Origin: Bradyrhizobium sp. WBOS07
GTDB taxonomy: Bacteria; Pseudomonadota; Alphaproteobacteria; Rhizobiales; Xanthobacteraceae
Assembly: GCF_024585165.1 (NCBI RefSeq)
Contig: NZ_CP029008.1
Location: 3,782,001-3,846,000, forward strand
DNA: 64,000 bases
Direction of reading: 5' to 3'
Shown here: positions 5,569 through 34,600 of the stretch, piece after piece
Position numbering within the stretch: position 1 is the first letter of the stretch
Layout of the letters: the number at the start of each line of letters is the position of its first letter
Position numbers and translations under genes: made by a program
Notes under the pieces: model-generated
Told to the model about the DNA's origin: nothing
The model's database searches: none
What the model saw: the letters and a program-made list of their open reading frames with translations, nothing else

Positions 5569-5570
5569 CC

Positions 5571-6701: not shown

Positions 6702-6824
6702 AGCACGTCTTACACCAGCTCTAACAGCGGTTGAAGTATGATCGGCGGAAGGCAGATAACTGTGGAACCCACCGCCCCTCCTCGCTGGATTCAAGTGAAA
6801 AATAGCCTCTGTTGGGTAATTTTG

Positions 6825-8102: not shown

Positions 8103-8103
8103 A

Positions 8104-11218: not shown

Positions 11219-11255
11219 TCGATATCAGCCTCGCGATTGCCAAGACGTTTCACGC

Positions 11256-14712: not shown

Positions 14713-14720
14713 TGAGGGCC

Positions 14721-15518: not shown

Positions 15519-15795
15519 TGGATAATGGGGGATTCTAGCAGACCGGCGGGCGTTACCGATATAGCAAACTCGGTTCTGGGACAGGAAGTGGCGTATCGAT
15601 CATTTTAGAGCCACGGGGCGGGCAATCCGAGGAACTTTAGTCGCACGTCCCCGAAACCCTATTGGGACTTTACGATGTCGCCAACCAGCTTGCCAGATGT
15701 GTCAGACACCTCGTTCGGCCCATCCGATAGGCAAGCGTCGCCTCGCCGGTGCTGGCGAGTTCTCCGATCGCCTCGAACTTGTCGTATGGGCCTGC

Positions 15796-16599
15796 TTACC
15801 GTCCCAAGAGCCTGTAGGATAAACCATAGAGCTTCGTCGCCGCACGGTAGGCTCCAAGCGACCAGAGGGCCCTGACAACTCTCGGCTGATGGAGGCCGAA
15901 CTCTCCACGGAGAGTGCAACGAACGCGGCGGCGACGTTCCGGGTCGAGCACGAGAACGCCAAGTGAAGACACTTCCAACGATCGAGCCGCACCGGCGCGC
16001 GTCGCTACATTTACCTCACGCTCGCGCAGCTCACGCCAGCGGGGACCAGGCTTCGCAAGTGCGACCTCGTAAAAAACCTCTGCACTCCCGAACTGCTCGA
16101 AGAACGCCCGCTCTGGGCTCCCGACCGTCAGGTTATGAATGGCCATCAGGCGAACATTGTCCGCCAGCCCCGCGGCCATCATCGAAATAGCCGGCCATCC
16201 CTTGGGGCCGTCAACGAGAAAGCCAACTCGTGCTCCGCGCAGCTTATTTGACCAGCGGCCAAACTCCTCATAGGCGCTGCCTTTGACAAGCTCGATGGGC
16301 AAATGCGCAAGACGTTGCCGACACGCCGCGGCCCGCGCCGTATCTTGCTCAAGGTCGATCGAAACGAGCCTGCGACCATTTCGCCTGGCCCAGTCACCCA
16401 GAATTTCAGTCGAGTAGCCATCCTGGCGGCCGGATTCGACGACGACCGAAACGTCCTCGACCATACAGCGTGCCAGGAAGAATGCCATTTCGCAGGGAAA
16501 AATTGCCCCTTCCACCCATCGGTCGACATATCCTTCGAGAACAAGTGCCGCCGCAATCTCTGCAGCGGCTTGAAGCGCTTCCAAGTCTTGTTTCGCCAT
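15796..16599 (-). CDS. Rossmann-fold methyltransferase-like protein of unknown substrate
   Basis: The product has about 267 residues. VVVESGRQDGYSTEILGDWA, VSIDLEQDTARAAACRQRL and ELVKGSAYEEF are in the order of SAM-binding motifs I to III, and FLVDGPKG resembles the acidic motif of cephalosporin-hydroxylase/TylF-like proteins. I do not recognise the exact family. The ATG has GGGA eight bases upstream and lies 14 bases after the flippase stop; a TTG six codons earlier is a weaker start. About 280 bp without a gene separate it from the formyltransferase. Confidence 0.65.
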   Translation of the reverse strand: MAKQDLEALQAAAEIAAALVLEGYVDRWVEGAIFPCEMAFFLARCMVEDVSVVVESGRQDGYSTEILGDWARRNGRRLVSIDLEQDTARAAACRQRLAHLPIELVKGSAYEEFGRWSNKLRGARVGFLVDGPKGWPAISMMAAGLADNVRLMAIHNLTVGSPERAFFEQFGSAEVFYEVALAKPGPRWRELREREVNVATRAGAARSLEVSSLGVLVLDPERRRRVRCTLRGEFGLHQPRVVRALWSLGAYRAATKLYGLSYRLLGR

Positions 16600-16613
16600 G
16601 AGTTTGATCCCGT

Positions 16614-18095
16614 TCAAATATTCTGAACCTTTGCATGAGATCGATCCTGCAAAACGCGCAGCAAATCAACGATGCGCTCTCGTTCGACGATAGCTGCCGC
16701 AGCGGAAACCGCTAAGCACAAACCGATTCTTGTTATCAGTGCGGGAGCCATGTATGCGTTGAACAACCAGCTCAGGATAATGGCAGCGCAGCCATACACG
16801 ACCCGACTGTCATCAAAGCCTTCAAGGCGCTGGAACGAAATCGATTTCCAATAGATATAGGCTCGGAATAGGATCGCTTCAGCAAGAAGAACTACGACCA
16901 CCCCCGCGAGGCCTCCGTTCCAGCCAACGTCTCGCACCCGACCTACGGCAAATGGTAAGGCAGCCAAGCAACAAATCGAAATCAGTGAACCCGCATGGGT
17001 GAGGCTTTTCGCGCCGCCATTTGCATAGATGGTCGCATTTTGCGTTCTGCCAGAAACGTGGAGCAGCAGAAGCAATGCGAACCAGGGCACGAGTGGCGCT
17101 GCGGGCGTTAGGCGGTCATGAGTCAGAATGACAACAAACTCCTCGCCGAAACAGGAGAATGCGACACCAAAAAGGGCAATCAGAACATGGATTGGCATCC
17201 ACACGCGTTTGGTCAATGAAAATAGCCGCTGCCCATCTCGCGCCTCGGCCAGCGACGTCGACCAGACATTGACTGCAACGGCATTGGTTCCGGCGAGCAA
17301 GGTTCCGTAGTACAGCCGGGCGTGACTGAGATATCCGACCGCTGAGAGGTTGAGATTCGCGGCGAGAATCGAATTCTCCCCGATACTGCGCAAGCCACCC
17401 GTGAGCCCCGATGCAATGGACGTTAGGCTGTGGGACCGAAGAACCAAAAACCATCGACGGCTAGGTACGTGCCATGGCTCGGCACCAAGCGCTACCATGG
17501 CGACCACCACAGAGCACGCTTGCCCGAGAACGGCCCCAACGAATAGCGATGCCACGCCCAGATGAAAGGTAAAGAGTGAGACTAGCGTGCCGGCAAAAGA
17601 CCCAACTGCTTGCATAGCGATCTGGGCAGCAACGGCATTGCCACGACCGGAAACGGCAAAGACATTGGTCGCGAGGATCGTCGCAGACTTTAAGGGAATG
17701 AGGAGGGCCGTCAGAAGAAGGGTTGCGCGGGAATCTTCAACTGGAACCGACATAATATGCTGAAGCCAGGGCCAAGCCACCAAGAACACGACAGCGAGGC
17801 TCACACTGAAAAGGAGTGCGACCGTAAAGAAGCTTGACAACATTCGCCGCCGCTCTGGAATCGAAGCAACCGAATAATTTGCCGGCAGCGCCAGAGAGCC
17901 ACCTGCATCGCCGAAAGCGCCAGCGAGCGCAGCCCACGACATCATTAGGGCAAAATATCCGAAGTCGGCCGCAGTCAATACAACGGTAGTCAATGGAAGG
18001 ATAGCGACGGACAAGACTGCTTGAAAGACTGTCGCGCTCACAAAGAGCAGAACGCGCCCCGCGAAACGGCCGCGAAGCGATAGAAACCTGCTCAC
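16614..18095 (-). CDS. polysaccharide flippase (Wzx/MOP superfamily)
   Basis: The protein has 493 residues with about 12 to 14 hydrophobic segments spread over its whole length, e.g. VLLFVSATVFQAVLSVAILP near residue 20 and VAVNVWSTSLAEARDGQ mid-protein. This is the layout of Wzx/RfbX flippases that move lipid-linked repeat units across the inner membrane. The start is a GTG overlapping the TylF-type gene's stop (GTGA), with GGGAG nine bases ahead. With a Wzy-type polymerase in the same locus this indicates a Wzx/Wzy-dependent pathway. Confidence 0.83.
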   Translation of the reverse strand: MSRFLSLRGRFAGRVLLFVSATVFQAVLSVAILPLTTVVLTAADFGYFALMMSWAALAGAFGDAGGSLALPANYSVASIPERRRMLSSFFTVALLFSVSLAVVFLVAWPWLQHIMSVPVEDSRATLLLTALLIPLKSATILATNVFAVSGRGNAVAAQIAMQAVGSFAGTLVSLFTFHLGVASLFVGAVLGQACSVVVAMVALGAEPWHVPSRRWFLVLRSHSLTSIASGLTGGLRSIGENSILAANLNLSAVGYLSHARLYYGTLLAGTNAVAVNVWSTSLAEARDGQRLFSLTKRVWMPIHVLIALFGVAFSCFGEEFVVILTHDRLTPAAPLVPWFALLLLLHVSGRTQNATIYANGGAKSLTHAGSLISICCLAALPFAVGRVRDVGWNGGLAGVVVVLLAEAILFRAYIYWKSISFQRLEGFDDSRVVYGCAAIILSWLFNAYMAPALITRIGLCLAVSAAAAIVERERIVDLLRVLQDRSHAKVQNI

Positions 18096-18886
18096 GTGGG
18101 GGAACTCCCGTTACCCCTGAGGGACGTGCCGACGCAGACAAAGGACATCTGCATTCCCGTCTGGACGAACGGCTCAAAACGAAGGTGCGGATGCGTTTCG
18201 CGGAATTGGTGCCATGCTAGCCGTTCACCACGATCAGGGTCGGCCCAGAAACAATTCCAATCGTCGAACACGATGATTGTGCCGACTTGTAGGAAATCAA
18301 TGATGAACGAAAGGATGGGGACAGTTGAATCGTAAAGATCACAATCGATATAGACCACAGCGGCTTTGGTTGGAAGAAGTTCACGAGCCAGATCTGACGT
18401 CAGACTGACATCGTAGAATCCTTTCACCGTTCGCAATCGATTGGCTGGAATGCCATGACGTCGGCATATTCGCTTGAAGTCCTCCTCGCTCGTCTTCAGT
18501 TTGCCCTGCTCCCAAGCATCCTGACGATCAATTTCTGATATCGCAGGCAATCCTTCGAATGAGTCGAAAGCCAGATACCGCCAGTCGAACAGATGATGGA
18601 AGCTGTCATATGCCAGCCTCATGGTGTTGCCGCCGAAGCAGCCAAACTCCATGTAGTAGCCTTTGATAGGCCGATTGACGTTCGCAAACCGAGCCATGCA
18701 AAGGAACAGATATTTCCGCTCCCGAGCAATGTGACGCAAATAGGTCGAGCGGACCCATCGCGTACGAGCTGAGAAGAGCGGCCCCTGCAACAAGGCGAAT
18801 ATCCGCCGCGCGAGCCGCTTGGTGCCGCTCGGTAAGCTCTGATAAGTCGGCAGCAAAGAGGCGCGTAGACGATCTTGCCAATTCAT
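18092..18886 (-). CDS. TylF/MycF-family O-methyltransferase
   Basis: The protein has 264 residues. The TylF/MycF signature is clear: GYYMEFGCFGGNTMRLAYD (SAM loop), LAFDSFEGLPAI, AVVYIDCDLYDSTVPIL (metal-binding acidic residues) and TIIVFDDWNCFWAD. Family members O-methylate sugars of macrolides or glycans in a Mg-dependent reaction. It is followed directly by the flippase with an overlapping stop/start, so it belongs to the same transcript. The methylated sugar is unknown. Confidence 0.88.
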   Translation of the reverse strand: MNWQDRLRASLLPTYQSLPSGTKRLARRIFALLQGPLFSARTRWVRSTYLRHIARERKYLFLCMARFANVNRPIKGYYMEFGCFGGNTMRLAYDSFHHLFDWRYLAFDSFEGLPAISEIDRQDAWEQGKLKTSEEDFKRICRRHGIPANRLRTVKGFYDVSLTSDLARELLPTKAAVVYIDCDLYDSTVPILSFIIDFLQVGTIIVFDDWNCFWADPDRGERLAWHQFRETHPHLRFEPFVQTGMQMSFVCVGTSLRGNGSSPT

Positions 18887-18910
18887 AGTCTCACGGACCC
18901 TTTACAGCGC

Positions 18911-19921
18911 CTATCTATGACTGAGAATTCGATCCAAATCCGAAGTCCACGCGTCAAGCAGGGGGAGCTCGGCAGCGCCAACCAGCTCGCGGTCGACCAG
19001 AGCCTGATAGCAACGACGCACGTTCAGACTGATGTAATCAAGGCCCCCGGCGATCGGCAGATCTTCGAGCATCCCTCGAATACGATCGTTATTCAGATAA
19101 CCCGGAATTTCGTCCTCAAAGTCTTTCATCAGGTCATGCTCGTTGCGATCTTGCCAAACAGTCGGCCCATGGAAGAGGATGTGCCAACCGTTTGCCCATG
19201 CGATGCGCTGAGCAATTAGGCTCCGCCAGATGTCGGTTACTCGAAAATTGCAATAGGAAGGAAGATACATGAGCGGAAAAGCACTTTGCCACCAGCTCGT
19301 GTTTTGGCTGTTGAACGGAACCCAAGCGCCCACGCCGAATGCAACCATCCTGTCCGTCCTGAAGTGGTGAGGCAACGGCAGCACCAGCCTGTAGAGAGCA
19401 TCCACATCGGGGTCTCCGTCCGCGAGTCCCTGCTGGATCGGACAATCAACTTCAGCCAGCGCCAAGTTCGCGAAGTCAGGAACGGGCTTCAGAACGTGAT
19501 TCAAAGGCAGCCCGCGCGGCCAGATATTGCCATCAGAAAAGTACCGATAAGCATTAACCCATCCATGCCCCGATAGAACTGGAGCGGTTAACTTGCGTCT
19601 CCGGCACTCGAAGAACTGCGGCCGTGCGAAATTGTCATCATCCGTTTCGACAATGACCTGCGCACCGCTTGCGATCGCAGACAGGTAGCCTATGTTCTTG
19701 CGCGCATAATTTTTCACTGGCGCAAGATTTGCGTATGCAAAGCCGGAATTCACCTGATCCGCAATCCCAAGGAAGCGACATCCTTCAATCGAAAAGTCTG
19801 CGGGACTCGCAGTGTCCCCGACAACGAAGAAGTCGAAACCAGACTGAAGAGCACTGGCCGCGATGGTCTTCATGACGTCATTAGGAGGATTGATTGACGT
19901 AATAATAATCGCTTGATTCAT
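18911..19921 (-). CDS. STELLO-like (DUF288) glycosyltransferase
   Basis: The product has about 336 residues and begins IIITSINPPNDVMKTIA, with FFVVGDTASP after it, a short GT-A-like nucleotide domain. VIVETDDDNFARPQF is a probable DxD metal site, and DGNIWPRGLPLNHV is the typical tryptophan/proline block of the STELLO/DUF288 group, best known from plants and scattered in bacteria. A frame 12 codons longer is possible. It is the first minus-strand gene of the locus and faces a divergent glycosyltransferase across about 150 bp that should hold both promoters. The assignment is from motif pattern. Confidence 0.7.
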   Translation of the reverse strand: MNQAIIITSINPPNDVMKTIAASALQSGFDFFVVGDTASPADFSIEGCRFLGIADQVNSGFAYANLAPVKNYARKNIGYLSAIASGAQVIVETDDDNFARPQFFECRRRKLTAPVLSGHGWVNAYRYFSDGNIWPRGLPLNHVLKPVPDFANLALAEVDCPIQQGLADGDPDVDALYRLVLPLPHHFRTDRMVAFGVGAWVPFNSQNTSWWQSAFPLMYLPSYCNFRVTDIWRSLIAQRIAWANGWHILFHGPTVWQDRNEHDLMKDFEDEIPGYLNNDRIRGMLEDLPIAGGLDYISLNVRRCYQALVDRELVGAAELPLLDAWTSDLDRILSHR

Positions 19922-20073
19922 TCGTCTCGGACCGCGTAATTTGCCTTGTGGGGGCATGGCTAGCTAGGGCACATTGGGCCTCCTCGCAAACAAATTCGGC
20001 ATTATCAAGCGAAAAATGACCTTTCGTCCAAGGAAAACCGCCAAGAAGCCGGTCTCTACGTGGGAGCCGCAAC

Positions 20074-21297
20074 TTGCAGCGACGTAGGCGGATTGTTCTT
20101 TGTACCAAAGGAGTTCCGGACGAACGCGAGGGCGCTAGCCTCGTCATCATCTACAGCTTCCTTCAGGGGATCCGCGCTCAATATTTTGATGTTCTTCATC
20201 TTGTCCTGCTTGATGACGATCCGAAAGATCAAGAGCGGTTAGAGAATTATCGCGCGTCTGTCTCGACGGATTATTTTGAGGTCTTGGCGGCGACCGCCCG
20301 CACGCTTGTCGTTCAGGGCGCGAGGGAACATCGCATCGATCTGCTGCCCGTCGCGGAGCTCATCAAGCGGGGGAGAGAATTTTCCGCCGACCTATTTGTC
20401 GCCTTCGACATATTGCCTGCATGGCTTGGAGTCGAGATTCTTGCCAAACGAAAGCTTGCCTGGCTGGGCGATCTCAATTTCCAGACGACCTACTATCACG
20501 GTCTTTACGGCCTTCAGGAACGTCCGTGGCGAATCTTCGCTTTCGCTAAATACTGGCTAGCCGCACGCAATTGGAAGCGCGTCTATGCACGTGTCCTCTC
20601 ATCCTACGATGAAGTCATCACGTCCGCAGCATCGTCGGTAGAACAGCTCAGACGCCTCGGACTGCGGAATCACCAATATTGTCCCTATCCTTGGCCTGTG
20701 ATCGACCCACCCGTCCCATACCGTGCGAAGCCGGATATCCCTACCTTCATGTTCTTCGGCAATCTAGTCGGCCTAGGTTCCCGCTCGGCCCTGCATTTTA
20801 TGATCACGCAGGTCTATGGCCGATTGGTCAAGCTCTGGGGACACAACGGCTTCAAGATTCTGTTGGCTGGGCGAGGAAACCTGCCCGAATGGTTTGCCGA
20901 ATCGATCAAAGACAAGCCGGAATTTGTTCGCGTCGGCTTTGTCGACAACCTTCCATCTACTTTGGCCGATTGTCACGCAGCTCTTGTGCCTATCGACGTT
21001 CCGGTTGGCAACAGAACGCGCATCCTTTACGCGCTCAGCCAGTCGACCCTGGTCATCGCCCATGAAAATGTGGCACTCGGAAATGTAGCACTTGTCGACG
21101 GTCAGACCTGCGCGCTCGCCTCTTCCGGTGAAGAATTCGTGGCGCGTATGAAGCGCGCAGTCGATGATCCCCTTTGGGCGCGCAAAGTAGCTGAAGCCGG
21201 ACGCAAAGTGTACAAAGATCTCTTTAGCCCGGAAAAAGCAACGGCGGAGTTCATTGCGCGGACCAACAGGTTGCTCACCCTCCCTCCGCAGGACTAG
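20074..21297 (+). CDS. glycosyltransferase (GT-B fold)
   Basis: The protein has 407 residues. The start is a TTG with GGGAG seven bases ahead; no ATG or GTG is available in frame before a stop. The N-terminus RIVLCTKGVPDEREGAS is a GT-B start, and the second half has FMFFGNLVGLGSRSALHF, KILLAGRGNLPEW, VRVGFVDNLPSTLADCHAAL and a donor-site region VPIDVPVGNRTRILYALSQ. GT4-like overall, though the usual E-x7-E motif is not obvious. It is transcribed away from the rest of the locus and converges on the fucose synthase gene. Confidence 0.75.
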   Translation: MQRRRRIVLCTKGVPDEREGASLVIIYSFLQGIRAQYFDVLHLVLLDDDPKDQERLENYRASVSTDYFEVLAATARTLVVQGAREHRIDLLPVAELIKRGREFSADLFVAFDILPAWLGVEILAKRKLAWLGDLNFQTTYYHGLYGLQERPWRIFAFAKYWLAARNWKRVYARVLSSYDEVITSAASSVEQLRRLGLRNHQYCPYPWPVIDPPVPYRAKPDIPTFMFFGNLVGLGSRSALHFMITQVYGRLVKLWGHNGFKILLAGRGNLPEWFAESIKDKPEFVRVGFVDNLPSTLADCHAALVPIDVPVGNRTRILYALSQSTLVIAHENVALGNVALVDGQTCALASSGEEFVARMKRAVDDPLWARKVAEAGRKVYKDLFSPEKATAEFIARTNRLLTLPPQD

Positions 21298-22314
21298 TTA
21301 ATTGCCGCTCATTTTTGGGGCAACTTCGCGGCTATCGTCATCAGAGGCAAAGCCACGCGGTATGTGTCCAGCTGCACGGCTGTCTAGAAACCATCGATAG
21401 GTTGATTCCAATCCTTGAGGCAGCGGCATTCTCGATCGCCAGCCGAGCTGCGTAAGCCGTTCAGTGTTCAGCAGCCGACGAGGAGCCCCTTCGGGTTTCG
21501 ATGCATCGAATGTGATGCGCCCGGCGAACCCCGCAACAGCAGCAACCAAAGTCGCAAGTTCGCGGATAGAAACGTCAACCCCGCTGCCGATATTGATAAT
21601 GTCTCCTGAAGAGTAATTCTTGAGAAGAAATACGAGGGCGTCGGCGCACTCCTCGACGTGAACGAATTCACGGCGCGCAGAGCCCCCGCCCCAGACTACG
21701 ACCTCGTCAAGCCGATTGATGACGGCATCATGAAAGCGGCGGATAAACGCCGGAATAACGTGCGAGTTCTCATTGTCGAAATAGTCACCCGGACCGTAAA
21801 GATTTCCAGGAACAGCGGCGATGAAATCAAGGCCATATTGCTGACGATATGCAGCACATTGCATCATGCCAGCAATCTTTGCGACCCCATACCACACGTT
21901 GGTCGGCTCCAACGGTCCTGTCATCAGAGCGTCTTCGTGAATAGGTTGCTCGGCTAGGCGGGGATACACGCACGAAGAACTGACAAACAACAACTTCTTG
22001 ACGCCTCGAGCCGCAGCCGCTTGAATCACATTATCCTGAATAGCGAGGTTGTCCGAGAGAAAGCTCGCAGGATACCGACTGTTCGCGAGCACCCCGCCTA
22101 CTCGAGCCGCGGCCAAGACAACAACTTCCGGCTGCATATCATCGAACCAGCTCCTTACGGCAGCTTGATTGCGGAGGTCAAGTTCTTCGCGCGCGGCGGT
22201 GAGGATTTCACAATTTTCACTCGCTAGTCTGCGAACGACCGCTGAGCCCAACATACCTCGATGGCCTGCGACCCAGATACGGCGTCCCGCTAGGTCAAAC
22301 CTGAAATCCGACAT
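21298..22314 (-). CDS. fcl: GDP-L-fucose synthase
   Basis: The product has about 338 residues. It converts GDP-4-keto-6-deoxymannose to GDP-L-fucose with NADPH. The Rossmann glycine motif is VAGHRGMLGSAVVRRL; the catalytic Ser and the Tyr/Lys pair appear in LLFVSSSCVYP and VWYGVAKIAGM. NLYGPGDYFDNENSHVIPA and WGGGSARREFVHVEE are WcaG/Fcl signatures. The partner GDP-mannose 4,6-dehydratase gene is not in the window. Two ATGs five codons apart compete for the start. L-fucose is therefore a likely sugar of the locus's glycan. Confidence 0.92.
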   Translation of the reverse strand: MSDFRFDLAGRRIWVAGHRGMLGSAVVRRLASENCEILTAAREELDLRNQAAVRSWFDDMQPEVVVLAAARVGGVLANSRYPASFLSDNLAIQDNVIQAAAARGVKKLLFVSSSCVYPRLAEQPIHEDALMTGPLEPTNVWYGVAKIAGMMQCAAYRQQYGLDFIAAVPGNLYGPGDYFDNENSHVIPAFIRRFHDAVINRLDEVVVWGGGSARREFVHVEECADALVFLLKNYSSGDIINIGSGVDVSIRELATLVAAVAGFAGRITFDASKPEGAPRRLLNTERLTQLGWRSRMPLPQGLESTYRWFLDSRAAGHIPRGFASDDDSREVAPKMSGN

Positions 22315-22514
22315 CGCAGCACCCGCCATCTGCCAAAACTTGGCGCATATATCCTGTTCTCCCGAGCTTATAGCTCCGCATTGGCGCATGGGCAACCATC
22401 GCTTCACGATGGCCCGTCATGGGCTCAACGAAGGATCGTCCGAGAGCCTTGCCAAAAATGACAGCTCAACCCGACCAATAGCTGCGTGCCACTCTCAGGC
22501 ATTTCGTGCAAATG

Positions 22515-25343: not shown

Positions 25344-25462
25344 TCTCGCAGGCAGCGCATCAGGCATGGCATTTCGGCAGGCGGGATCGGCGTCGGCGCG
25401 GACTTGTGGCGTGATCTTTCGGCACTATGGTAGGCCCGCAATCTGTCCCGGAGCCTTTCAAG

Positions 25463-26656
25463 ATGCCCTTTCCGCATGCCTCGGAAGCCCTGTCGCGCTT
25501 CACCGTGCTCGATCTGACCCGCGTCCGTTCCGGGCCGACCTGCGTGCGGCAACTGGCGGACTGGGGCGCGAATGTCGTCAAGATCGACGCGTTGACCGAG
25601 GACGCCGGCGGTGAGCAGCCGGGCGGCCCCCGGCAAGGTTCCGACTTCCAGAATCTGCATCGCAACAAGCGGGCCATGACGCTGAACCTGAAGGACGAGC
25701 GCGGGCTCGCATTGTTCAAGCGCCTCGCCGCCAAGGCCGATGTCGTGGTCGAGAATTTCCGGCCCGACGTGAAGAAGAAGCTCGGCATCGACTATGACAG
25801 CCTCGCCGCGATCAACCCGCGCATCGTCTATGGCAGCATCTCCGGCTTCGGCCAGGACGGCCCTTATCACAAGCGGCCCGGCTTCGATCAGATCGCGCAA
25901 GGCATGGGCGGGCTGATGTCGATCACTGGGGCACCGGGCCAAGGCCCGATGCGGGTCGGCATTCCCGTCGCCGACCTGACCGCCGGCCTGTTTTGCGCCA
26001 TGGGCATCCTCACCGCGCTGCTCGAGCGCGAGGTGTCCGGCAAGGGCCAGTGGGTGCAGACGTCGCTGCTGCAGGCCCAGATCTTCATGCTCGACTTCCA
26101 GGCCGCACGCTGGCTGATGGAGAAGGAGGTCGCCAAGCAGGCCGGCAACAATCATCCGACCAGCATCCCGACCGGCGTGTTCAAGACCTCGGACGGGTAC
26201 ATCAACATCGCCACGACCGGTGGACGGATCTGGGAGCGCTGCGCGCAGGCGATCGGCGCGCCGGAGCTCTATGCCCATCCCGACTATGCGACGGCCCCTG
26301 CCCGTTCCAAGAACCGCGATGCGCTCAACGCCGAGATCGAGAAGCGCACCGTGACGAAGTCGACCGAGACCTGGGTCCGCGAGCTCAACGAGGCCGGCGT
26401 GCCCTGCGGGCCGATCTATGCCATCGACCAGATGTTCGAGGACGCCCAGGTCAAGCATCTCGGCATCGCCCAGGACGTGCCGAACCAGGAGGGCCGCCGG
26501 ATCCGCCTGGTCGGCCAGCCGGTGACGCTGTCACGCACGCCGAGCAGGATGGTGGCGCGGCCGCCGGAATTCGGCGAGCAGACCGAGGAGGTCTTGAAGG
26601 AATTCGGCCTCGGTGCGGACGAGATCGCAACTTTGAGAGAAGCCGGCGTCGTCTGA
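25463..26656 (+). CDS. CaiB/BaiF (class III) CoA-transferase
   Basis: The product has about 397 residues. FTVLDLTRVRSGPTCVRQLA, ADVVVENFRP and GSISGFGQDGPYHKRPGFDQ are class III CoA-transferase signatures, with the catalytic Asp expected in the last block. Length fits formyl-CoA/succinyl-CoA transferases. An ATG 12 codons upstream has no ribosome site, whereas this one has GGAG nine bases ahead. The 3' end is unusual: its last part is repeated downstream, followed by an alternative C-terminus, so the present last residues (IATLREAGVV) may have been supplied by an inserted segment. The substrate is unknown. Confidence 0.9.
   Translation: MPFPHASEALSRFTVLDLTRVRSGPTCVRQLADWGANVVKIDALTEDAGGEQPGGPRQGSDFQNLHRNKRAMTLNLKDERGLALFKRLAAKADVVVENFRPDVKKKLGIDYDSLAAINPRIVYGSISGFGQDGPYHKRPGFDQIAQGMGGLMSITGAPGQGPMRVGIPVADLTAGLFCAMGILTALLEREVSGKGQWVQTSLLQAQIFMLDFQAARWLMEKEVAKQAGNNHPTSIPTGVFKTSDGYINIATTGGRIWERCAQAIGAPELYAHPDYATAPARSKNRDALNAEIEKRTVTKSTETWVRELNEAGVPCGPIYAIDQMFEDAQVKHLGIAQDVPNQEGRRIRLVGQPVTLSRTPSRMVARPPEFGEQTEEVLKEFGLGADEIATLREAGVV
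26571..26628 (+). repeat. 58-bp direct repeat, left copy (att-like)
   Basis: An exact 58-bp sequence inside the 3' end of the CoA-transferase gene. It starts at TCGGCGAGCAGACC and ends at GACGAGATCGC. The same 58 bases occur once more at the right end of the 3.46-kb segment, and similarity on the upstream side stops sharply at the repeat edge. It could be an integration core site. Confidence 0.9.
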
Positions 26657-26730
26657 TTTGCTCAACTCATTGAGCTGCGATCACCGTACCCGCCCGAAAA
26701 GGCGCCGCGCAAGCATACCGACGAGGAACT

Positions 26731-28023
26731 ATGGAAAACCAGTTTAGCTCATCTACTGTACAAGGGAAGCAGTGTAGCTGGACTCAACATCTTCGGCGCT
26801 GTCTGACCCTATCGAGCTCGACAGCCATGGGCGATCTCCTCGCTGTGATCACAGTCGCGTCGCTGCCGTGGTCCACAACCATCACCTCGATCTTCAGCGC
26901 CCTTCTGGTTCTCAATGTGTGTACGAGGATACGTCTTGCAGAACTTGTAGATTTGGTACGCTGCTCCAGAAGCGGCTTTGCCGTCGGATTGTTTGCGCTC
27001 GCGTTATTAGGCACTTTGTGGGCGACGGATGTCTCCTTGGGCGCGCGCCTGCGGGGTGTAAATCCCACACTAAAGTTTTTTATGATGCCGTTCTTCCTGT
27101 ATCACTTCTATAAATCGTCGCGTACGGTTTGGATATTATGGGCTTTCCTCGGATCTTGTGTTGTTCTACTGGCCCTGTCCTGGGCCACAGTTTTTGTGCC
27201 AAATCTCACCCCCACTGCGAGTTTGCAGCCTGGCGTTCCTGTCAAGAATTACATTGATCAAAGCCAATCATTTGCCCTGTGCGCCGTGGTTCTCGCTTGG
27301 CCGATCTTAGAGCTATTTAAGGCCCGCAAACTTCACTTAGCTCTGCCTCTACTTGCGCTATCAATCGCGTTTCTAGCCGACCTGTCCTTCGTGGTACTCG
27401 CTCGGACAGCGCTAATATATACGCCGGTGATGCTGCTCTTTTTTGGCGCATTTTATTTGCCACGCTCACTCTTTTATGGAGGGATCGGACTTTTCATATT
27501 GGCTGCCGGGTCCGCGTGGCTTGCTTCACCCAACTTACAAAACCGCACGAATAGTATCTTACTTGAGTCTTCAAAATACGGCGCCAGCAACGAGATAACG
27601 TCAACTGGATTGCGGCTGGAGTATTGGCGCAAGTCTCTCGGGTTCATTCGCGAAGCGCCATTGCTCGGACACGGCACAGGCTCCGTGCAGATGCTATTCG
27701 ATCGTGCCGCCCTAGGTCAAACAGGACTAGCGGCGGAGACAATCAGCAACCCACATAACCAAACGCTTAGTGCCGCCGTGCAATGGGGCTTGATCGGTTG
27801 CGTCGTCCTCTACGCAATGTGGATTTGTCATGTCAGTTTTTTTCGAGGGCCTGGCTTTTATCCGTGGCTTGGCTTCATCGTCGTTGTACAGAATTTTGTC
27901 AGCTCGCTTTTCAATTCGCATCTGTTCGATTTTGTGCCCGGTTGGATCTACGTGATAGGCGTCAGTCTCGCAGCAGGGCGGATTCTCCAACACCGCAACA
28001 AGCTTACGGGGGCCTCACGATAG
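26731..28023 (+). CDS. O-antigen polymerase/ligase family membrane protein (orphan)
   Basis: The protein has 430 residues with about ten to twelve membrane segments, e.g. SGFAVGLFALALLGTLWA and LPLLALSIAFLADLSFVVLA. The Wzy_C-type loop region contains EYWRKSLGFIREAPLLGHGT and the His-bearing motif SNPHNQTLSAAVQWGLIG, as in RfaL/O-antigen ligases. GAGGA precedes the ATG at a short distance. Codon use (many TTT, ATA and TTA codons) differs from the neighbouring CoA-transferase. It is alone, without glycosyltransferases beside it, inside the repeat-flanked segment; it could alter polymerisation or ligation of the glycan made by the nearby locus. Confidence 0.85.
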   Translation: MENQFSSSTVQGKQCSWTQHLRRCLTLSSSTAMGDLLAVITVASLPWSTTITSIFSALLVLNVCTRIRLAELVDLVRCSRSGFAVGLFALALLGTLWATDVSLGARLRGVNPTLKFFMMPFFLYHFYKSSRTVWILWAFLGSCVVLLALSWATVFVPNLTPTASLQPGVPVKNYIDQSQSFALCAVVLAWPILELFKARKLHLALPLLALSIAFLADLSFVVLARTALIYTPVMLLFFGAFYLPRSLFYGGIGLFILAAGSAWLASPNLQNRTNSILLESSKYGASNEITSTGLRLEYWRKSLGFIREAPLLGHGTGSVQMLFDRAALGQTGLAAETISNPHNQTLSAAVQWGLIGCVVLYAMWICHVSFFRGPGFYPWLGFIVVVQNFVSSLFNSHLFDFVPGWIYVIGVSLAAGRILQHRNKLTGASR

Positions 28024-28068
28024 AACAGCGGCCTCGACAAGTGCCACCTGGAAAAGATTACCTGACCG

Positions 28069-28119
28069 ACTGTCCAGATATGGACGACAACAGAATAGAA
28101 CTTTCAGTTGTCGGACAGT
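28069..28119. terminator. imperfect inverted repeat between convergent genes
   Basis: ACTGTCC and GACAAC on the left pair with GTTGTC and GGACAGT on the right around a 15-nt loop, with a ten-base bulge in the left arm. It sits just past the polymerase gene and touches the end of the convergent zinc-ribbon ORF, so a bidirectional terminator is possible. No T-run follows. It could also be an element end. Confidence 0.4.
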
Positions 28120-28364
28120 GACGGCAACCTCGCCCCGCTCTTTTTGTAATCTGCCGCTAATCGCCATCCAGCAACATCGCTCGTTGCACCACATGCGTCG
28201 CAATGCAAGTCCTTACGAACCGCGCATCGTCCCTGCGCGTAGGTGGCCGGCGATGCTTGCTCAGAACAGTTTGGACAAACAAGCGGCATGCGCCTGACTC
28301 TCCAACGATCCAGGAGATAGAATAAACCGCCGAAGGCTAAATGGCGAAGACGATCTTCTCTCAT
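28104..28364 (-). CDS. small zinc-ribbon-like protein, hypothetical
   Basis: The product has about 86 residues. The middle has CPNC, then a single Cys in GRCAVRKD and CDACGA, a four-to-five-cysteine zinc-ribbon pattern, preceded by a basic helix (LFYLLDRWRVRR). A TTG 11 codons upstream also opens the frame. The ribosome site is poor and I do not recognise a family. It lies in the putative island and may be a real small gene or a remnant. Confidence 0.4.
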   Translation of the reverse strand: MREDRLRHLAFGGLFYLLDRWRVRRMPLVCPNCSEQASPATYAQGRCAVRKDLHCDACGATSDVAGWRLAADYKKSGARLPSLSDN

Positions 28365-28397
28365 TATCTGCTCAATCGACACGTACTCTATCGCCAA

Positions 28398-28947
28398 CTG
28401 GTCTGGCTGGGGCGGGGCGGGGCGGCTTTCGTTCCCCAGATCACAAGCCTATAGCCGATGCTCATCTACGGATAAGGAGCGCTTCAAACCTGGACACTTG
28501 CTTTCTATTGCAGCGACCCGTGGCATCACTCGAAACAGCGAAGAGGCAGAATCGGCCCCTTTGGAAGCCGATGCCCTGTGGTCGCGACAGAGTCAATGAC
28601 AAATTGCGTTTGACGGCATGCCCTGCGGACGGTTCAGGCAGGCCGTCGCTCATTCAGTCTGATCTAAGCAATAACAGTCTTGGTGACTGGACGCCGAAAC
28701 TCGCGCCCGTGAGGGTGATCGGCCCTAAGCGCAAGCCCTCGTTCCATGAAACAGTATAGCACGAAACCACAACCCGGGTGAGATGGAATGATATCTGGAA
28801 TGGGACAGCCTCACCGCGTTACAAGCGGGCCGCCAAGCCGATAGGCCCGGAGAGAGTAATAGTGATGCCAATCGGGACTAAACTATTTTCAAGTACTAAC
28901 CGCTTCGAGCGAAATTCCCGAAAAGGGAAGAGCTGAGGGGTGATGAC
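28398..28947. other. 550-bp stretch without a supported gene
   Basis: Short open frames occur on both strands, but their translations lack protein-like features and ribosome sites. I saw no tRNA, transposase remnant or clear repeat. This may be decayed island DNA. Confidence 0.5.
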
Positions 28948-29304
28948 GTGATGCCGCGCCTGCTCTACATCAACGAAAGGTTTGGCCACGACGCGACCAT
29001 CATACTGGAGAGCGGAGACGCCTGTTGGATCTCCGTGGGCAAGAAGGGTGTCCTCGTACGTACTCACAAGCACAGCTTTTGGGGTGGATTGCTGGGAAGC
29101 CTCCTTGGTCCAAAGCTCTATCAGGAACGGGATGTCTACCAGGCGCTCAGCGTTGCTCAAGCTATTCTGGCAACCTTCCGACCGGTTCCACAAATTCGGT
29201 GTAGGGATGTGATGCTGAAAGCCTTCTGCACCGCCGTCTGGCACTGCCCCTCCCCCGCGCGCGTCAAGGCCGTCTTAAATGATCCGGCTTTACTCACGGC
29301 GTGA
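28948..29304 (+). CDS. hypothetical protein of the putative island
   Basis: A 118-residue protein. The GTG start has AGGGG seven bases ahead; the next codon is an ATG that could also serve. The translation MMPRLLYINERFGHDATIIL followed by WISVGKKGVLVRTHKHSFWG looks like a compact beta-rich fold, and ERDVYQALSVAQAILATF is a helix. The family is not recognised and no membrane segment is apparent. It is transcribed toward the P63C-like gene. Confidence 0.5.
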   Translation: MMPRLLYINERFGHDATIILESGDACWISVGKKGVLVRTHKHSFWGGLLGSLLGPKLYQERDVYQALSVAQAILATFRPVPQIRCRDVMLKAFCTAVWHCPSPARVKAVLNDPALLTA

Positions 29305-29389
29305 CATTGGCGCGGACGATCACTTAACATGGTCCCTCTTTGCCTGTATGTCGTACTGCAATTGTCCGATCCGACCATAGTCCTGAAGA

Positions 29390-30061
29390 ATGAATACGCG
29401 TCGAAAAGTGAGTTTGGACCACGACCGGCGGAGAACGCGCTGGAAGGTGCAGTGGGGAGTTCCCGCCCGAGCCGCTGGCGGCACTGCAAGAGCAGCCGCG
29501 CTGTCGGGTGACGAGCGGAGGGAGATCGCTCGGAAGGCTGCCAAGGCTCGTTGGGCGCGACACTTGCCACAGGCAACACATCAAGGCGTTCTTCGACTTG
29601 GCGACATCGAGATCGAGGTCGCCATCCTCGATAACGGCCAGCGCGTGATGACTCAGGTTGGCTTCATGTGGGGCCTGGGTCGCATTCGGCCCCCCAAAGG
29701 GCGCCCGTATCGCAGGAGCAGCAATCTGCCCGCTTTCTTAGCAACGCGAAATCTTAAGCCATTTATCGGCGAAGGTTTGGTCGTGCTGGCCAATCAAATT
29801 GAATTCCGCACCGAGCAAGGCTTAAAGACGGTCGGCTACGTAGCGAGTTTCCTCCCTGAGGTTTGCGCCGTCTTTGCCCGCGCCAAACAGGCCGGAGTGT
29901 TAAATGTCACTCAGCGCAACATTGCTCGCCGCGCCGAAATTATCGCCGAGCAGCTCCAACGCTCGAGCATGACGTGCCTCATTGCTAGAGCTACAGGTTA
30001 CCGAGAAAGTCGTGAGATGCGAGACGCGCCAGACGGTTTCTGTCAGGAGGACCAAATCTAA
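29390..30061 (+). pseudogene. P63C-domain (phage/plasmid-type) protein, C-terminally truncated
   Basis: A 223-residue translation. A basic N-terminal segment with SGDERREIARKAAKARWARH precedes LRLGDIEIEVAILDNGQRVM, LPAFLATRNLKPFIGEGL and VGYVASFLPEVCAVFARAKQ, which fit the P63C domain found in phage-derived and mobile-element proteins. That domain normally continues for many residues after the ATGY(Q/R)xxR motif; here the frame ends soon after ATGYRESREM, 27 bases before the right repeat. The gene therefore appears cut by the recombination event or a frameshift. The function of P63C proteins is not established. Confidence 0.6.
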
Positions 30062-30088
30062 GCGCCCTACAATCCGGGTTCCGCGATA

Positions 30089-30146
30089 TCGGCGAGCAGA
30101 CCGAGGAGGTCTTGAAGGAATTCGGCCTCGGTGCGGACGAGATCGC
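30089..30146 (+). repeat. 58-bp direct repeat, right copy (att-like)
   Basis: Base-for-base copy of the 58 bp in the CoA-transferase 3' end. Sequence immediately to its left has no similarity to the CoA-transferase gene. Sequence to its right still encodes a CoA-transferase-like C-terminus but has diverged. This is the pattern expected at the distal junction of an element that integrated in a gene's 3' end. Confidence 0.9.
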
Positions 30147-30174
30147 CAAGCTCAGAGATGCGAAGGTGGTGTGA
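30089..30174 (+). pseudogene. displaced 3' end of a CoA-transferase gene
   Basis: Reads in frame as 27 residues plus stop: the first 19 residues match the intact gene, and then IAKLRDAKVV stands in place of IATLREAGVV. The stop is at the same distance. It has no start codon or upstream coding part. It is probably the original end of the CoA-transferase gene, left behind when the segment inserted. Confidence 0.8.
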
Positions 30175-30240
30175 ATTGGGCCGGAAACGACGATGCCCGG
30201 CAGGATTGCCGGGCATCGAAGGCGCCTCGCTCTGGACAGC

Positions 30241-31113
30241 TCAGTATTTCGCGACGACGGGGGTCGGGGTGAACGAATAGTTGAAGCCGGCACGCAGCAC
30301 GTGATCGTGGAAACTGACGTCCGCCTGGTTGGCGGTTCCCGCGAAGTAAGTCTTGGTGCCGAAATCCATGTAGAGATATTCGAGCTTGGCCGACCAGTTC
30401 CGGGTGAACTTGCGTTCGACGCCGGCGCCCAATGTCCAGCCGAGCCGGGTATCGCTGCTGGACACCGCCGCCCCGATCGGAAAGCTGAACGCGCCCACCG
30501 GCGTGGTGCCGCCGAGGCCCGGCCCGAAGACCTGGATTCCAAGATTGGTCGCGGAGGAATACTTGAACTCGCCGACAGCGAGACCACCGGTCGCGTACCA
30601 GAGGGTCTGCGGATCCGACAGGATGCCGACGCGCCCGCGGAACGTCGCGAACCACTGCAGGTCGTAGGAAAGATTTGCGGTGAGCGTTGCAATGGAATTG
30701 AAGTCGGAGCCGATTGGAAGACCGATGATATTCGAACCGTAGCGCGCGCTTGTCGTGGTCACCGTCCGCGACGAACGTTCGCCGGTCGCCTGAATGTCGC
30801 CCTCGAGGCCGACGACCCATTTCGGATCGACCTGCCAGTTGTAGCCCAGCTGACCGCCGGCCAGCCAACCATCGACGTTCTGGCCAAACGCACCGAATTG
30901 CGTGGCCGGGAATGGCAGTGCGATCGGCGCGATGGTCGTGTCCGCGCGGCCCCAGCTGTATCCGGCGTTCAATCCGGCATAGAGGCCCGTCCAGCTCCAG
31001 ACCGGATCGACCACCGGCGGGGCCTTCACGTAGGGTTTCGATGCCAGGTCGGCGGCCAATGCACTGCTCGCGACCAGCGATGCCGCCACAATGCCTATCA
31101 CAACCTGCTTCAT
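30241..31113 (-). CDS. outer-membrane beta-barrel protein (Omp25/31- or RopB-like)
   Basis: The product has about 290 residues. KQVVIGIVAASLVASSALAA is a classic signal peptide ending at an Ala-x-Ala site. WTGLYAGLNAGYSWGRAD and later alternating strands (GGQLGYNWQVDPKWVVGLEG, WSAKLEYLYMDFG) match the porin-like OmpA-type barrels abundant in rhizobia, and the chain ends in Tyr, near-typical for a barrel C-terminus. GGAGGG lies seven bases before the ATG. It probably resided next to the CoA-transferase before the segment inserted. Confidence 0.9.
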   Translation of the reverse strand: MKQVVIGIVAASLVASSALAADLASKPYVKAPPVVDPVWSWTGLYAGLNAGYSWGRADTTIAPIALPFPATQFGAFGQNVDGWLAGGQLGYNWQVDPKWVVGLEGDIQATGERSSRTVTTTSARYGSNIIGLPIGSDFNSIATLTANLSYDLQWFATFRGRVGILSDPQTLWYATGGLAVGEFKYSSATNLGIQVFGPGLGGTTPVGAFSFPIGAAVSSSDTRLGWTLGAGVERKFTRNWSAKLEYLYMDFGTKTYFAGTANQADVSFHDHVLRAGFNYSFTPTPVVAKY

Positions 31114-31268
31114 TGCAATGCCCTCCGAAAGACTGGAAATCCAGGGGAGCATAGGCGCCAAGGACGGCCGAGGCTGTCGCCCGGCAGCAACATTTGGGGA
31201 GAAGCACTAGGCTTGAGCAACCGGCCTATTGCGACACGACAAGCTAAGATACTGAAAAAACTCGCTTG

Positions 31269-32786
31269 TCATGACCTCGCCAGTTTGTCCCGCTGGCTCC
31301 AGCCGACCCGGCCGAGCAAGCGCTCGATCAGGGGCCAGAACAGCAGGACGATCGCGAGTGTCGTGATCGAGCCGACCAGCCCGTTCGACCAGAACACTTT
31401 CAGCGTGCCGCCGGAGCCGATCATCGAGAGGCGGAAGGCATCCTCGGCGCGGTTGCCGAGCACGAGCGCGAGGGTGAACGGCGCCAGCGGAATGCCGATC
31501 TTCTTGAAGACGTAGCCGACCACGCCGAAGCCGAGCATCAGCCAGATGTCGAACATCGCGTTCTGGATCGCGTAGGCGCCGATCGCGCAGGACACCACGA
31601 TCATCGGCGCCACCGCGGCAAAAGGCACGCGCAGGATCGAGGCGAAGATAGGCACCGTCGTCAGCACCAGCACGAGGCCGACGACATTGCCGAGATACAT
31701 CGAAGCGATCAGGCCCCAGACGAAGTCCTTGTGCTCGACGAACAGCAGCGGTCCCGGATTGAGCCCCCACACCATCAGCCCGCCGAGCAGGATCGCCGCC
31801 GTGCCCGACCCGGGAATGCCGAGCGCCAGCATCGGCAGCAGCGCCGAGGTGCCGGAGGCATGCGCCGCCGTCTCGGGCGCGAACACGCCCTCGATGCGGC
31901 CCTTGCCGAAGCTCTCCGGCTCCTTGGCGAAACGCTTGGCAAGATTGTAACCCATGAAGGAGGCCGCGATCGCGCCGCCCGGGGTGATGCCGAGCCAGCA
32001 GCCGATGAAGGAGGAGCGCAGCAGCGTCATCCAGTATTTCGGCAGGTCCCTCCAGACGCCGAGCACGACGCGCAGGGAAATGCTCGCCGCATGTCCCCGC
32101 AGCGCCAGCCGCTCCTCCATCGTCAGCAGGATCTCGCTGATGCCGAACAGGCCGATGACGGCGACCAGGAAGTTGATGCCGCGGAGCAATTCCGGCGAGC
32201 CGAAGGTCATGCGCAGATTGCCCGACACGGTATCCATGCCGATGCCGGCCAGCAGCAGCCCCAGCGACATCGAGATGACCGTCTTGTGCTTGGCCTCGCG
32301 TCCCAGTCCGACGAAGGAGCAGAAGGTGAGCAGATACACCGCGAAGAACTCGGGCGGACCAAATTTCAGCGCGAAGGACGAGATCATCGGCGCAAGGAAG
32401 GTGATCAGCAGCACCGCGACCAGCGAGCCGATGAACGAGGAGGTGAACGCCGCGGTCAGCGCCTCCGCGGCCCGGCCCTGCTGCGCCATCGGATAACCGT
32501 CGAAGGTGGTCGCGACCGACCAGGCTTCGCCGGGAATGTTGAACAGGATCGAGGTGATCGCGCCGCCGAACAGCGCGCCCCAATAGATGCAGGACAGCAT
32601 CACGATCGCCGAGGTCGGATCCATCGTGAAGGTGAGCGGCAACAGGATCGCGACCCCGTTGGGACCGCCGAGGCCCGGCAGCACGCCGACGAAGATGCCG
32701 AGCACCAGCCCGACCATCATCAGGACGAGCGTCTTCCACGTCAGCAGGACGGCAAAACCGTGGAGCAGGAGACCGAAAGCTTCCAT
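31269..32786 (-). CDS. tctA: tripartite tricarboxylate transporter permease TctA
   Basis: The product has about 505 residues with some 11 to 12 membrane segments. LGIFVGVLPGLGGPNGVAIL near the N-terminus and GITPGGAIAASFMGYNLAK and LGIPGSGTAAILLGGLMVWG in the middle are the repeated PG-rich TctA motifs. The frame is open far upstream, through tctB, but this ATG starts the family-typical N-terminus. It is the last gene of tctC-tctB-tctA and forms the main channel of a proton- or sodium-coupled carboxylate uptake system. Confidence 0.93.
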   Translation of the reverse strand: MEAFGLLLHGFAVLLTWKTLVLMMVGLVLGIFVGVLPGLGGPNGVAILLPLTFTMDPTSAIVMLSCIYWGALFGGAITSILFNIPGEAWSVATTFDGYPMAQQGRAAEALTAAFTSSFIGSLVAVLLITFLAPMISSFALKFGPPEFFAVYLLTFCSFVGLGREAKHKTVISMSLGLLLAGIGMDTVSGNLRMTFGSPELLRGINFLVAVIGLFGISEILLTMEERLALRGHAASISLRVVLGVWRDLPKYWMTLLRSSFIGCWLGITPGGAIAASFMGYNLAKRFAKEPESFGKGRIEGVFAPETAAHASGTSALLPMLALGIPGSGTAAILLGGLMVWGLNPGPLLFVEHKDFVWGLIASMYLGNVVGLVLVLTTVPIFASILRVPFAAVAPMIVVSCAIGAYAIQNAMFDIWLMLGFGVVGYVFKKIGIPLAPFTLALVLGNRAEDAFRLSMIGSGGTLKVFWSNGLVGSITTLAIVLLFWPLIERLLGRVGWSQRDKLARS

Positions 32787-32797
32787 GGCAGGCCCGC

Positions 32798-33340
32798 CTA
32801 GCGGCCGAAGGCCGCTTCGAGCGGCCCTTTCGGCATGATGACGTCGAAGGCGACGTCGAAAGTGACGAACATGATCGCCGTGAACACGAAGGCCGTGAGC
32901 AGCGACTTCCACAGCGCGATCTTGCCGACCAAGCGCATGAAGCCTGCGATCAGGAGGAAGCTCGCGACATAGAGGCCGAGGAACTGCATCGCCAGGCAGA
33001 ACAGCAGCGTCGGCACGAACACCGCCAGCACGCGGCGCGCCTGCGCCTGCGTGACGAAGGCCTCTGCCGCCTTGCGATGCGCGACCAGCGCCGCGATCAG
33101 GCCGTAGAGGCTGCCGCCGCCGAGGATGACCGAGAGATAGAATGGGAAATATCCGGGCTCGGGCCCGGTCGAATCCCAGGACGCGCCGGTGCGCCAATTG
33201 TCGTAGCCGAGCGTGACGGCCAGCGCGAGCAGCAGCAGGCAGACGACGATCTCGATCGTGCCGGAGGACACGACGGAGGGCGAATCGTCTTCGGGCGCGG
33301 TCGGATCGTCGACGACGATTTCGATATCGGTTTGGGACAT
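32798..33340 (-). CDS. tctB: tripartite tricarboxylate transporter small membrane subunit TctB
   Basis: The product has about 180 residues. After an acidic N-terminal tail there are four hydrophobic segments, with the typical TctB loop GPEPGYFPFYLSVILGGGSL between the first two. It partners TctA in the inner membrane; the gene ends 11 bases before tctA. The distance from tctC is larger (about 130 bp) and carries a pair of strong hairpins. Confidence 0.9.
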   Translation of the reverse strand: MSQTDIEIVVDDPTAPEDDSPSVVSSGTIEIVVCLLLLALAVTLGYDNWRTGASWDSTGPEPGYFPFYLSVILGGGSLYGLIAALVAHRKAAEAFVTQAQARRVLAVFVPTLLFCLAMQFLGLYVASFLLIAGFMRLVGKIALWKSLLTAFVFTAIMFVTFDVAFDVIMPKGPLEAAFGR

Positions 33341-33366
33341 GAGCTGCCAAATCAAATTGCGCTGTC

Positions 33367-33458
33367 ATCATCCGCGAAAGCGGATGATCCAGTACTCCGT
33401 CCAGAAGCCGTAACGTTGAGCTCTGTGCGATACTGGATGCCCCGCCTTCGCGGGGCAT
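33367..33458. repeat. REP/BIME-like double hairpin between tctC and tctB
   Basis: Two perfect hairpins face each other: ATCATCCGC-GAAA-GCGGATGAT (33367-33388) and ATGCCCCGC-CTTC-GCGGGGCAT (33437-33458). Just inside them TCCAGTA pairs with TACTGGA, so the whole 92 bp can fold into one structure. Such mosaics are frequent intergenic repeats in rhizobial genomes. Here it may limit read-through from tctC into tctBA, giving more binding protein than permease. Confidence 0.75.
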
Positions 33459-33472
33459 GACGCCAGAGGTGG

Positions 33473-34459
33473 CTACTTCGCGACGAAACCGGCTTCGGTC
33501 ATCAGCGACTTGTTGAGCGCGTCATCCTCCTCGAGGAACTGCACCATGTCCTTGCCGGTGAGGAAGATCGGCTTCAAGGCCTGCTTCTCCATGTACTCCT
33601 TGTACTCCGAGGTCTGCGTTACCTTGTGGAAGAGATCGACATAGAACGCCTGCTGCTCGGCCGTCACCTTGCCGGGCAGGAACATCGCGCGCAGCATCAG
33701 ATATTGCACGTCGACGCCCTCCTCCTTGCAGGTCGGAATGTCGGCCCAGGACTGGGTGTCCGTCACCTTGCTGGTGTAGGAGATGCGCTCCTTATCGAAC
33801 ACACAGAGCGGACGCACCTGGCCGGCGCGCCAGACTTCGAGATTTTCACTGGGGTTGTTGACGTTGGCTTCGGTGTGGTTGCCGACCAGCTGGGTCGCGG
33901 CCTCGCCGCCGGACTTGTAGGGCAGATAGGAGAACTTCGCGCCGGTCTTCTGCTCGAGGAAGACGGTCAGCACGTGGTCCTCGCGCTTGGAGCCGGTGCC
34001 GCCCATCTTGAACGGCGCACTCGCGGCCTTCGCGGCCGCGACGAATTCCTTCACCGTCTTGGGACCTGCGCTGTTGTCCCACAGCACGAACTGGTCGAGC
34101 GCGACCACCGAAACCGGGGTCAGCTCACGCCAATTGAAGGGGATCTTCGCCGACAGCGGCAGCATGTAGATCAACGAATAGGCGATCAGCACCTTGTTCG
34201 GATCGCCCTCGCTGGACTTCATGTACATCAGCGCTTCCGCACCCGAGGCGCCGCCCTTGAGCGAGACGACGATCGGCTGCTTCATCAGATTGTTCTTCTG
34301 GATCGCGGCCTGCATCATCCGCGCCATCTGGTCGGAGGCACCGCCCGCGCCTGCCGCCACCACGATCTCGACCGGCTTGGCCGGCTCCCAGCCGGCAAAT
34401 GCCGGCGTGCTCAACAACAGCGCCATTGCAGCGCCGACGGCTTTCCCTGGAATTCGCAC
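33473..34459 (-). CDS. tctC: tripartite tricarboxylate transporter substrate-binding protein TctC
   Basis: The product has about 328 residues. It starts at a GTG with GGGGA eight bases ahead and has a signal peptide (KAVGAAMALLLSTPAFAG). The mature N-terminus EIVVAAGAGGASDQMARMM is the Bug/TctC ligand-binding signature, and FKMGGTGSKREDHVLTVFL fits the second domain. The track of basic residues before the GTG makes longer starts unlikely. It captures a carboxylate in the periplasm for TctAB. The ligand is not known; the catabolic neighbours suggest a hydroxy- or dicarboxylate. Confidence 0.9.
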   Translation of the reverse strand: MRIPGKAVGAAMALLLSTPAFAGWEPAKPVEIVVAAGAGGASDQMARMMQAAIQKNNLMKQPIVVSLKGGASGAEALMYMKSSEGDPNKVLIAYSLIYMLPLSAKIPFNWRELTPVSVVALDQFVLWDNSAGPKTVKEFVAAAKAASAPFKMGGTGSKREDHVLTVFLEQKTGAKFSYLPYKSGGEAATQLVGNHTEANVNNPSENLEVWRAGQVRPLCVFDKERISYTSKVTDTQSWADIPTCKEEGVDVQYLMLRAMFLPGKVTAEQQAFYVDLFHKVTQTSEYKEYMEKQALKPIFLTGKDMVQFLEEDDALNKSLMTEAGFVAK

Positions 34460-34600
34460 GAGTTTCGTCCCCTGATGTTTATTGAGTTGTAGTGCGGAAA
34501 CTTTTATCCCTGCATTGTGCGGACTATCACCGACGAGTTCAAGCAAGCGAGCCGGTCGAACCCTATGACTTTCGGCTGACGAAGCCGAAAGCGCGTGGAC

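Follow-up and report, generated by a model that had tools for sequence, protein, structure and literature searches.

A probable recombination scar behind a CoA-transferase gene at a surface-polysaccharide locus of Bradyrhizobium

In the window considered here (the whole analysed stretch of 64,000 nucleotides, positions 3,782,001 to 3,846,000 of contig NZ_CP029008.1 from Bradyrhizobium sp. WBOS07), the 3' end of a family III coenzyme A (CoA)-transferase gene is followed by foreign DNA enclosed between two exact copies of a 58-bp sequence, each of which runs into a gene tail of its own. The host genome is a single contig of 6.73 Mb whose closest named database relatives are Bradyrhizobium; 265 genomes of the genus, its own included, were searched (cited below by G numbers, and individual loci by L numbers), with window positions 57000-59400 as the yardstick of kinship. 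Taken together, the comparisons suggest that the insert is probably a recombination scar rather than a mobile element, one in which the first joint was made through homology, the second without it, and 58 bp of recipient DNA were doubled, at a recurrent landing place for polysaccharide genes. The features on which this reading depends, including several open reading frames (ORFs), are the following:

25463..26656, + strand: CoA-transferase family III gene, 397 amino acids (PF02515, E 1.9e-117), with a recipient-type body and a foreign last 28 bp
26571..26628, + strand: first 58-bp copy, gene bases 1109-1166, of recipient type (exact repeat; 95% to G093)
26629..26656, + strand: foreign gene tail (..TLREAGVV stop), forming the homologous left joint and aligning beyond the stop with G232, G271 and G187
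26629..30088, no strand: foreign DNA between the copies, 3460 bp (3518 bp net with one 58-bp copy), absent in G093
26731..28023, + strand: gene for an O-antigen-ligase-type membrane protein (Wzy_C; PF04932, 58.5 bits vs a cut-off of 31.7)
28104..28397, - strand: small ORF of zinc-ribbon-like type, perhaps a remnant (its match to the transposase zinc-ribbon PF12760 stays under the cut-off, 17.5 vs 25.4 bits)
28944..30088, + strand: block c, containing ORFs 28948-29304 and 29390-30061, neither of which matches a Pfam family
30085..30092, + strand: right joint, where the donor block appears broken off and is fused to gene base 1109, with at most TC in common (alignment of six relatives)
30089..30146, + strand: second 58-bp copy (exact repeat)
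30147..30174, + strand: native gene tail (..KLRDAKVV stop), of the same type as in G093 and 11 relatives with readable tails

The repeat, the empty site and the two joints

The sequences at 26571-26628 and 30089-30146 agree without a mismatch, and a chance origin was rejected because an exact 58-bp match within 64 kb is far above chance expectation. In the 28 bp that follow the two copies 12 positions differ, and the encoded C-termini are IATLREAGVV after the first and IAKLRDAKVV after the second. When the 90-bp query 30089-30178 was compared with the whole genome, both repeat sites were recovered together with one weak match of 29-30 bp elsewhere, at 1.31 Mb (L003), which was rejected as a further site since it shows no CoA-transferase end. 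The tail on the far side of the insert is the usual one: a KVV ending was found in all 11 relatives whose tail could be read by script (29 were tried, 18 giving no reading), and LRDAKVV is the commonest tail (42 of 120) among the best 120 of 7539 homologous proteins. The LREAGVV tail was not found among these best 120 and is present in G170.

An empty site is preserved in G093, the closest of the 265 genomes by the yardstick (94%, the next being at 91%). Its counterparts of 23611-26628 (94.2%) and of 30089-33343 (93.8%) share an overlap of exactly 58 bp, so that it carries one 58-bp copy followed by the tail LRDAKVV, with nothing between; the right neighbour genes are directly contiguous with the gene end, and likeness extends rightward at 94-95% over most of the fetched stretch. 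This single-copy site, with its exact overlap, indicates a net gain of 3518 bp in the window's lineage with no loss of recipient DNA. Loss of an older insert in G093 was considered and rejected, as G005, G274, G282 and G225 likewise lack such an insert at this place and end in a tail of the native type. The original prediction, made from the bare sequence, had proposed an insertion at the 3' end of a class III CoA-transferase gene, with a foreign tail restoring the gene and the native tail pushed to the far side, and had pointed to the 58-bp repeat, the two different 10-residue tails and the value of a relative with one copy followed by an IAKLRDAKVV-type tail; the exact repeat, the tail alignments and the empty site of G093 agree with it on all of these points.

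As to the origin of the 58 bp, the gene body (25463-26500) is 97-98% identical to G093 and 89-94% identical to G232, G271 and G187, and the 58-bp segment itself is 95% identical to G093, 93% to G124 and G005, and 86, 86 and 81% to G232, G271 and G187, respectively. The chance that two lineages share 58 identical bases is about 1.5% at 93% likeness and about 5% at 95%; because identity across lineages would thus be improbable, both copies are best read, from these likenesses, as the recipient's own DNA, doubled.

The two ends of the insert are of different character. At the left joint, the foreign tail and the bases beyond its stop align in register with G232, G271 and G187, in which a ligase lies directly behind the same gene and is 76-77% alike over most of its length. 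At the right joint, the window jumps to gene base 1109 at a point past which all six aligned borders (G124, G220, G221, G216, G271, G188) continue, each with a related sequence of its own; no more than TC (2 bp) is shared there. Since these six relatives run on past the jump, the right end is, as judged by alignment, a break within a donor block and not the end of a unit.

No other genome of the 265 matches 26657-30088 as a whole, the best matches spanning one end each. The ligase-type gene has a low third-position guanine-plus-cytosine (GC) content of 0.57, and DNA related to the small ORF at 28104..28397 lies behind the gene in G221 and G271/L079, with related DNA also in G127. Block c has relatives, 75-79% alike, in at least seven genomes (G153, G127, G221, G271, G188, G220 and G216), where they follow the third tct-like gene, and in G124 block c lies inside an island behind the CoA-transferase gene, with 85% identity to the window up to base 30088. 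An IS110-family transposase is located directly behind block c in G124 (L157:16685-17680); insertion sequences such as this one may help to move island pieces.

Second gene pieces at related loci and the competing explanations

Further pieces of the CoA-transferase gene were sought downstream of the gene (E < 1e-4) in 77 entries, comprising 20 G regions, 56 L loci and the window, among which five pairs represent the same gene (G127/L076, G271/L079, G069/L089, G238/L083, G170/L082). The G regions are not a random sample, most having been picked for two listed matches, close pairs or a longer tail match (106 multi-match genomes were preselected); the L070-L125 set was gathered by protein similarity, and 56 of its best 80 were scanned. 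A downstream further piece was detected at 14 distinct loci (the window, G100, G153, G127, G221, G271, G188, G267, G131, G138, G170, G181, G248 and L090), including a piece of 30 bp only in G188 and two full-length gene copies, 98.5% alike over 1216 bp, in G248. In the set gathered by protein similarity, four of the 56 loci (L076, L079, L082, L090) have a second piece within the fetched DNA at this threshold, and one was detected in L092 against the window's copy. Among 21 second-copy pieces, eight have the first copy of their own locus as their nearest match. Fragments resembling tctA lie between CoA-transferase pieces in G127, G181, G271 and G248, and elsewhere such fragments occur without that order.

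Two candidates were not counted: G069, where the second copy is inverted and the start was wrongly assigned in the border scan, and an apparent 68-kb element in G280, where the repeat is identical over all 4835 bp in view. In the latter (L034-L037; G280:C1:2705001-2778000), about 68 kb separate stretches that are identical over 4835 bp and include the CoA-transferase gene, an arrangement that reflects either an error of the assembly or a large tandem duplication of recent date. Two further irregularities were observed at this gene: in Bradyrhizobium sp. AT1 (L114) the frame ends at 298 amino acids and the remaining gene end follows downstream, a broken gene at the same hotspot, and in G016 gene bases 793-897 are missing.

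The homologous left joint, the non-homologous right joint and the doubled recipient DNA together argue for one-sided recombination accompanied by end joining or a comparable process. In this scheme the donor DNA would stem from a polysaccharide island in a different Bradyrhizobium. It would have paired with the CoA-transferase gene end, and its other end would have been attached, with no homology, at a point 58 bp upstream of where the tail switches, whether by end joining, by template switching, or by closure of a circle followed by a single crossover. Such a join would double 58 bp of the recipient, and the foreign tail would keep the gene open to its normal end. Three Ku genes found in the genome count in favour of this scheme. 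Several observations weigh against it. Thirteen of the 21 second-copy pieces are nearer another species' gene than their own copy (the piece in G181, for example, is 80% identical to its own copy and 92% to L081), and many of the other loci therefore appear old or of different history; the same test gave no second copy in five of 15 fetched genomes (G187, G218, G223, G178, G238). The borders of old copies are moreover limits of detectable likeness, approximate in nature, and not joints. DNA was doubled here with 2 bp common at the joint, whereas in its classical form homology-facilitated illegitimate recombination usually removes recipient DNA and shows 3-10 bp of micro-homology. Furthermore, the block-c carrier G124 is 93% identical in the 58 bp, and a donor identical to the recipient there is possible; the donor was not found, and in none of the 265 genomes do the ligase and block c lie next to each other; lastly, a further joint within the insert, at about 28.0-28.9 kb, is not accounted for.

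The mechanism put forward by the original prediction was the site-specific entry of an integrative element whose attachment core would lie in the gene end, whose own tail would restore the gene, and whose recombinase would act in trans or have since been lost. The clean insertion without loss, the exact repeats, the restored gene and the empty site would all suit such an element, as would the frequency of non-KVV tails (REAGVV, REARVI, RRAFIV and similar) at second-copy loci and the presence of one large serine recombinase of about 551 amino acids some 55 kb left of the site (at 3753522; L162:8459-10114; G000:C1 near 3.7535 Mb), although the neighbours of that recombinase are phage-like, as judged by eye without a family search. 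Against it, none of the six scanned ORFs of the insert matches an integrase family (the prediction, too, had noted no integrase inside), and the genome's recombinase matches (five tyrosine recombinases, all more than 1.6 Mb from the site, and the one resolvase-type match) all lie outside the insert. Nor was an integrase found at E <= 1 among 2834 ORFs of at least 80 amino acids in 20 regions (L150-L161 left out), the queries being the genome's five own tyrosine recombinases, which find each other only in part, such that the sensitivity of the search is moderate. The second copies of the 14 loci, window included, share no constant border, their most upstream borders lying at gene bases -123, -26, 137, 181, 717, 881, 919, 995, 1006, 1063, 1065, 1073, 1104 and 1109, and the insert's right end runs on in six relatives. 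Two full-length copies, a result that the prediction had set against itself, are present in G248, and site-specific integration is considered quite unlikely.

A different history, in which an earlier event (a tandem duplication or the single-crossover entry of full-gene DNA) produced a second complete CoA-transferase gene and the inner copy decayed to its last 86 bp, would draw on the same two full copies of G248, on the partly decayed copies in G138, G170, G131, G271 and L090, and on G271, which has one intact gene and pieces at two more places. In the window, however, the remnant shows no mismatch over 58 bp and is fused on its left directly to block c, and no other piece of CoA-transferase or tct genes was found in the insert (best E 0.15 by blastn, 0.58 by tblastn), which renders this history unlikely as well. 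Duplication of a target by a transposon, for which the IS110-family transposase beside block c in G124 and the sub-threshold transposase-type match of the zinc-ribbon ORF might be cited, is highly improbable, given that the left joint is homologous and in register, that no transposase lies above the cut-off in the insert, and that 58 bp is long for a transposon target duplication. One-sided recombination is accordingly the reading retained here for the window. A broader proposal is that the gene end is a standing, integrase-free docking site, which polysaccharide sets beginning with their own CoA-transferase tail would enter by one-sided recombination, rebuilding the gene each time and leaving decaying second copies; it is put forward tentatively, as a possibility on the doubtful side.

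The surface-polysaccharide hotspot

The surroundings of the insert comprise two further groups of genes:

3682..22407, both strands: surface-polysaccharide cluster left of the gene (Asn_synthase, glycosyl transferases, CTP_transf_3, Epimerase_2, NeuB, Polysacc_synt_3, Epimerase)
30241..34546, - strand: native right neighbours, presumably outer-membrane-protein-like and tct-type transporter genes, contiguous with the gene end in G093

The names given to the right neighbours, as well as the tct-like names in relatives, are our assumption, based on the sequence without a family search. In the left cluster, nine of ten scanned proteins have family matches, eight of sugar or polysaccharide type and one a serralysin-like protease, and third-position GC is mostly 0.55-0.69, compared with 0.87 in the CoA-transferase frame. 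Parts of this cluster recur in L076, L079 and L093; in G124 the island behind the gene contains sugar-nucleotide enzymes together with a glycosyl transferase, and in G170 it contains an acyltransferase and part of an epimerase; and the distance between the gene and the tct genes varies from 20 bp to about 9.5 kb across loci where both lie in the fetched DNA. Across the genus, surface-polysaccharide genes have landed repeatedly in the stretch behind the CoA-transferase gene. To the right of the insert, identity to G093 is 89-90% at 30180-31260 and 97% at 31300-33340 (in a single comparison); peaks of synonymous changes at the borders would be a mark of whole-cluster replacement, as in replacement flexible genomic islands.

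The serralysin-like protein (22515-24878, - strand), which adjoins the polysaccharide cluster, combines matrixin/M10, RTX calcium-binding and FG-GAP repeat features. The likeness of many relatives to the window ends near 23590, within this gene, which may be the left border of another exchange. Farther to the right, 35459-36550 and 36807-37898 are tandem paralogous genes with a start-to-start distance of 1348 bp and repeat pieces that are 72-90% alike.

Comparison with known systems

Genomic islands and integrative elements that carry an integrase enter gene ends, where a foreign tail restores the gene, direct repeats flank the island and relatives retain an empty site. The locus described here resembles them in its gene-end insertion, its restoring foreign tail, its direct repeats and the empty site of a relative, and differs from them in that no integrase was found, no constant core is present and one end is non-homologous. 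Repeats at a rebuilt gene end, together with an empty site, are usually taken to prove that an integrative element has entered; at this locus such a pattern seems to have come about in the absence of one, and it is the relatives that reveal the sequence type on either side of each joint.

A further parallel is offered by Escherichia coli crosses in which the delivered DNA had one homologous end. In these crosses, a polymerase chain reaction product of gene-end duplication was obtained from 56 of 60 recombinants, duplications measured 109-950 bp in 14 sequenced recombinants, and they were explained by a single crossover of a circle lacking part of the gene end; true homology-facilitated illegitimate recombination is described there as mostly deleting DNA, with micro-homology of 3-10 bp being usual (PMC3240628). 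One-sided homology and foreign DNA at a gene end are common to both of those processes and to the present insert, and the partial gene-end duplication recalls the E. coli cross, where its length is variable. Unlike those systems, the present case is a natural event in which 58 bp were doubled, no recipient DNA was deleted and an open gene was restored; in addition, 2 bp are common at the window's other joint, rather than the 3-10 bp of homology-facilitated illegitimate recombination (PMC3240628). Replacement flexible genomic islands, for whose exchange homologous recombination is proposed, likewise place variable surface-polysaccharide genes at a fixed position between conserved neighbours, but the present locus shows an addition with doubled gene pieces and no clean replacement (PMC4033161). 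All in all, the insert fits best among recombination products of a kind already known, as a case that arose in nature at a recurring hotspot of surface-polysaccharide genes, and the locus, as a natural series of such events, provides a way to ask how rhizobia add surface-polysaccharide genes.

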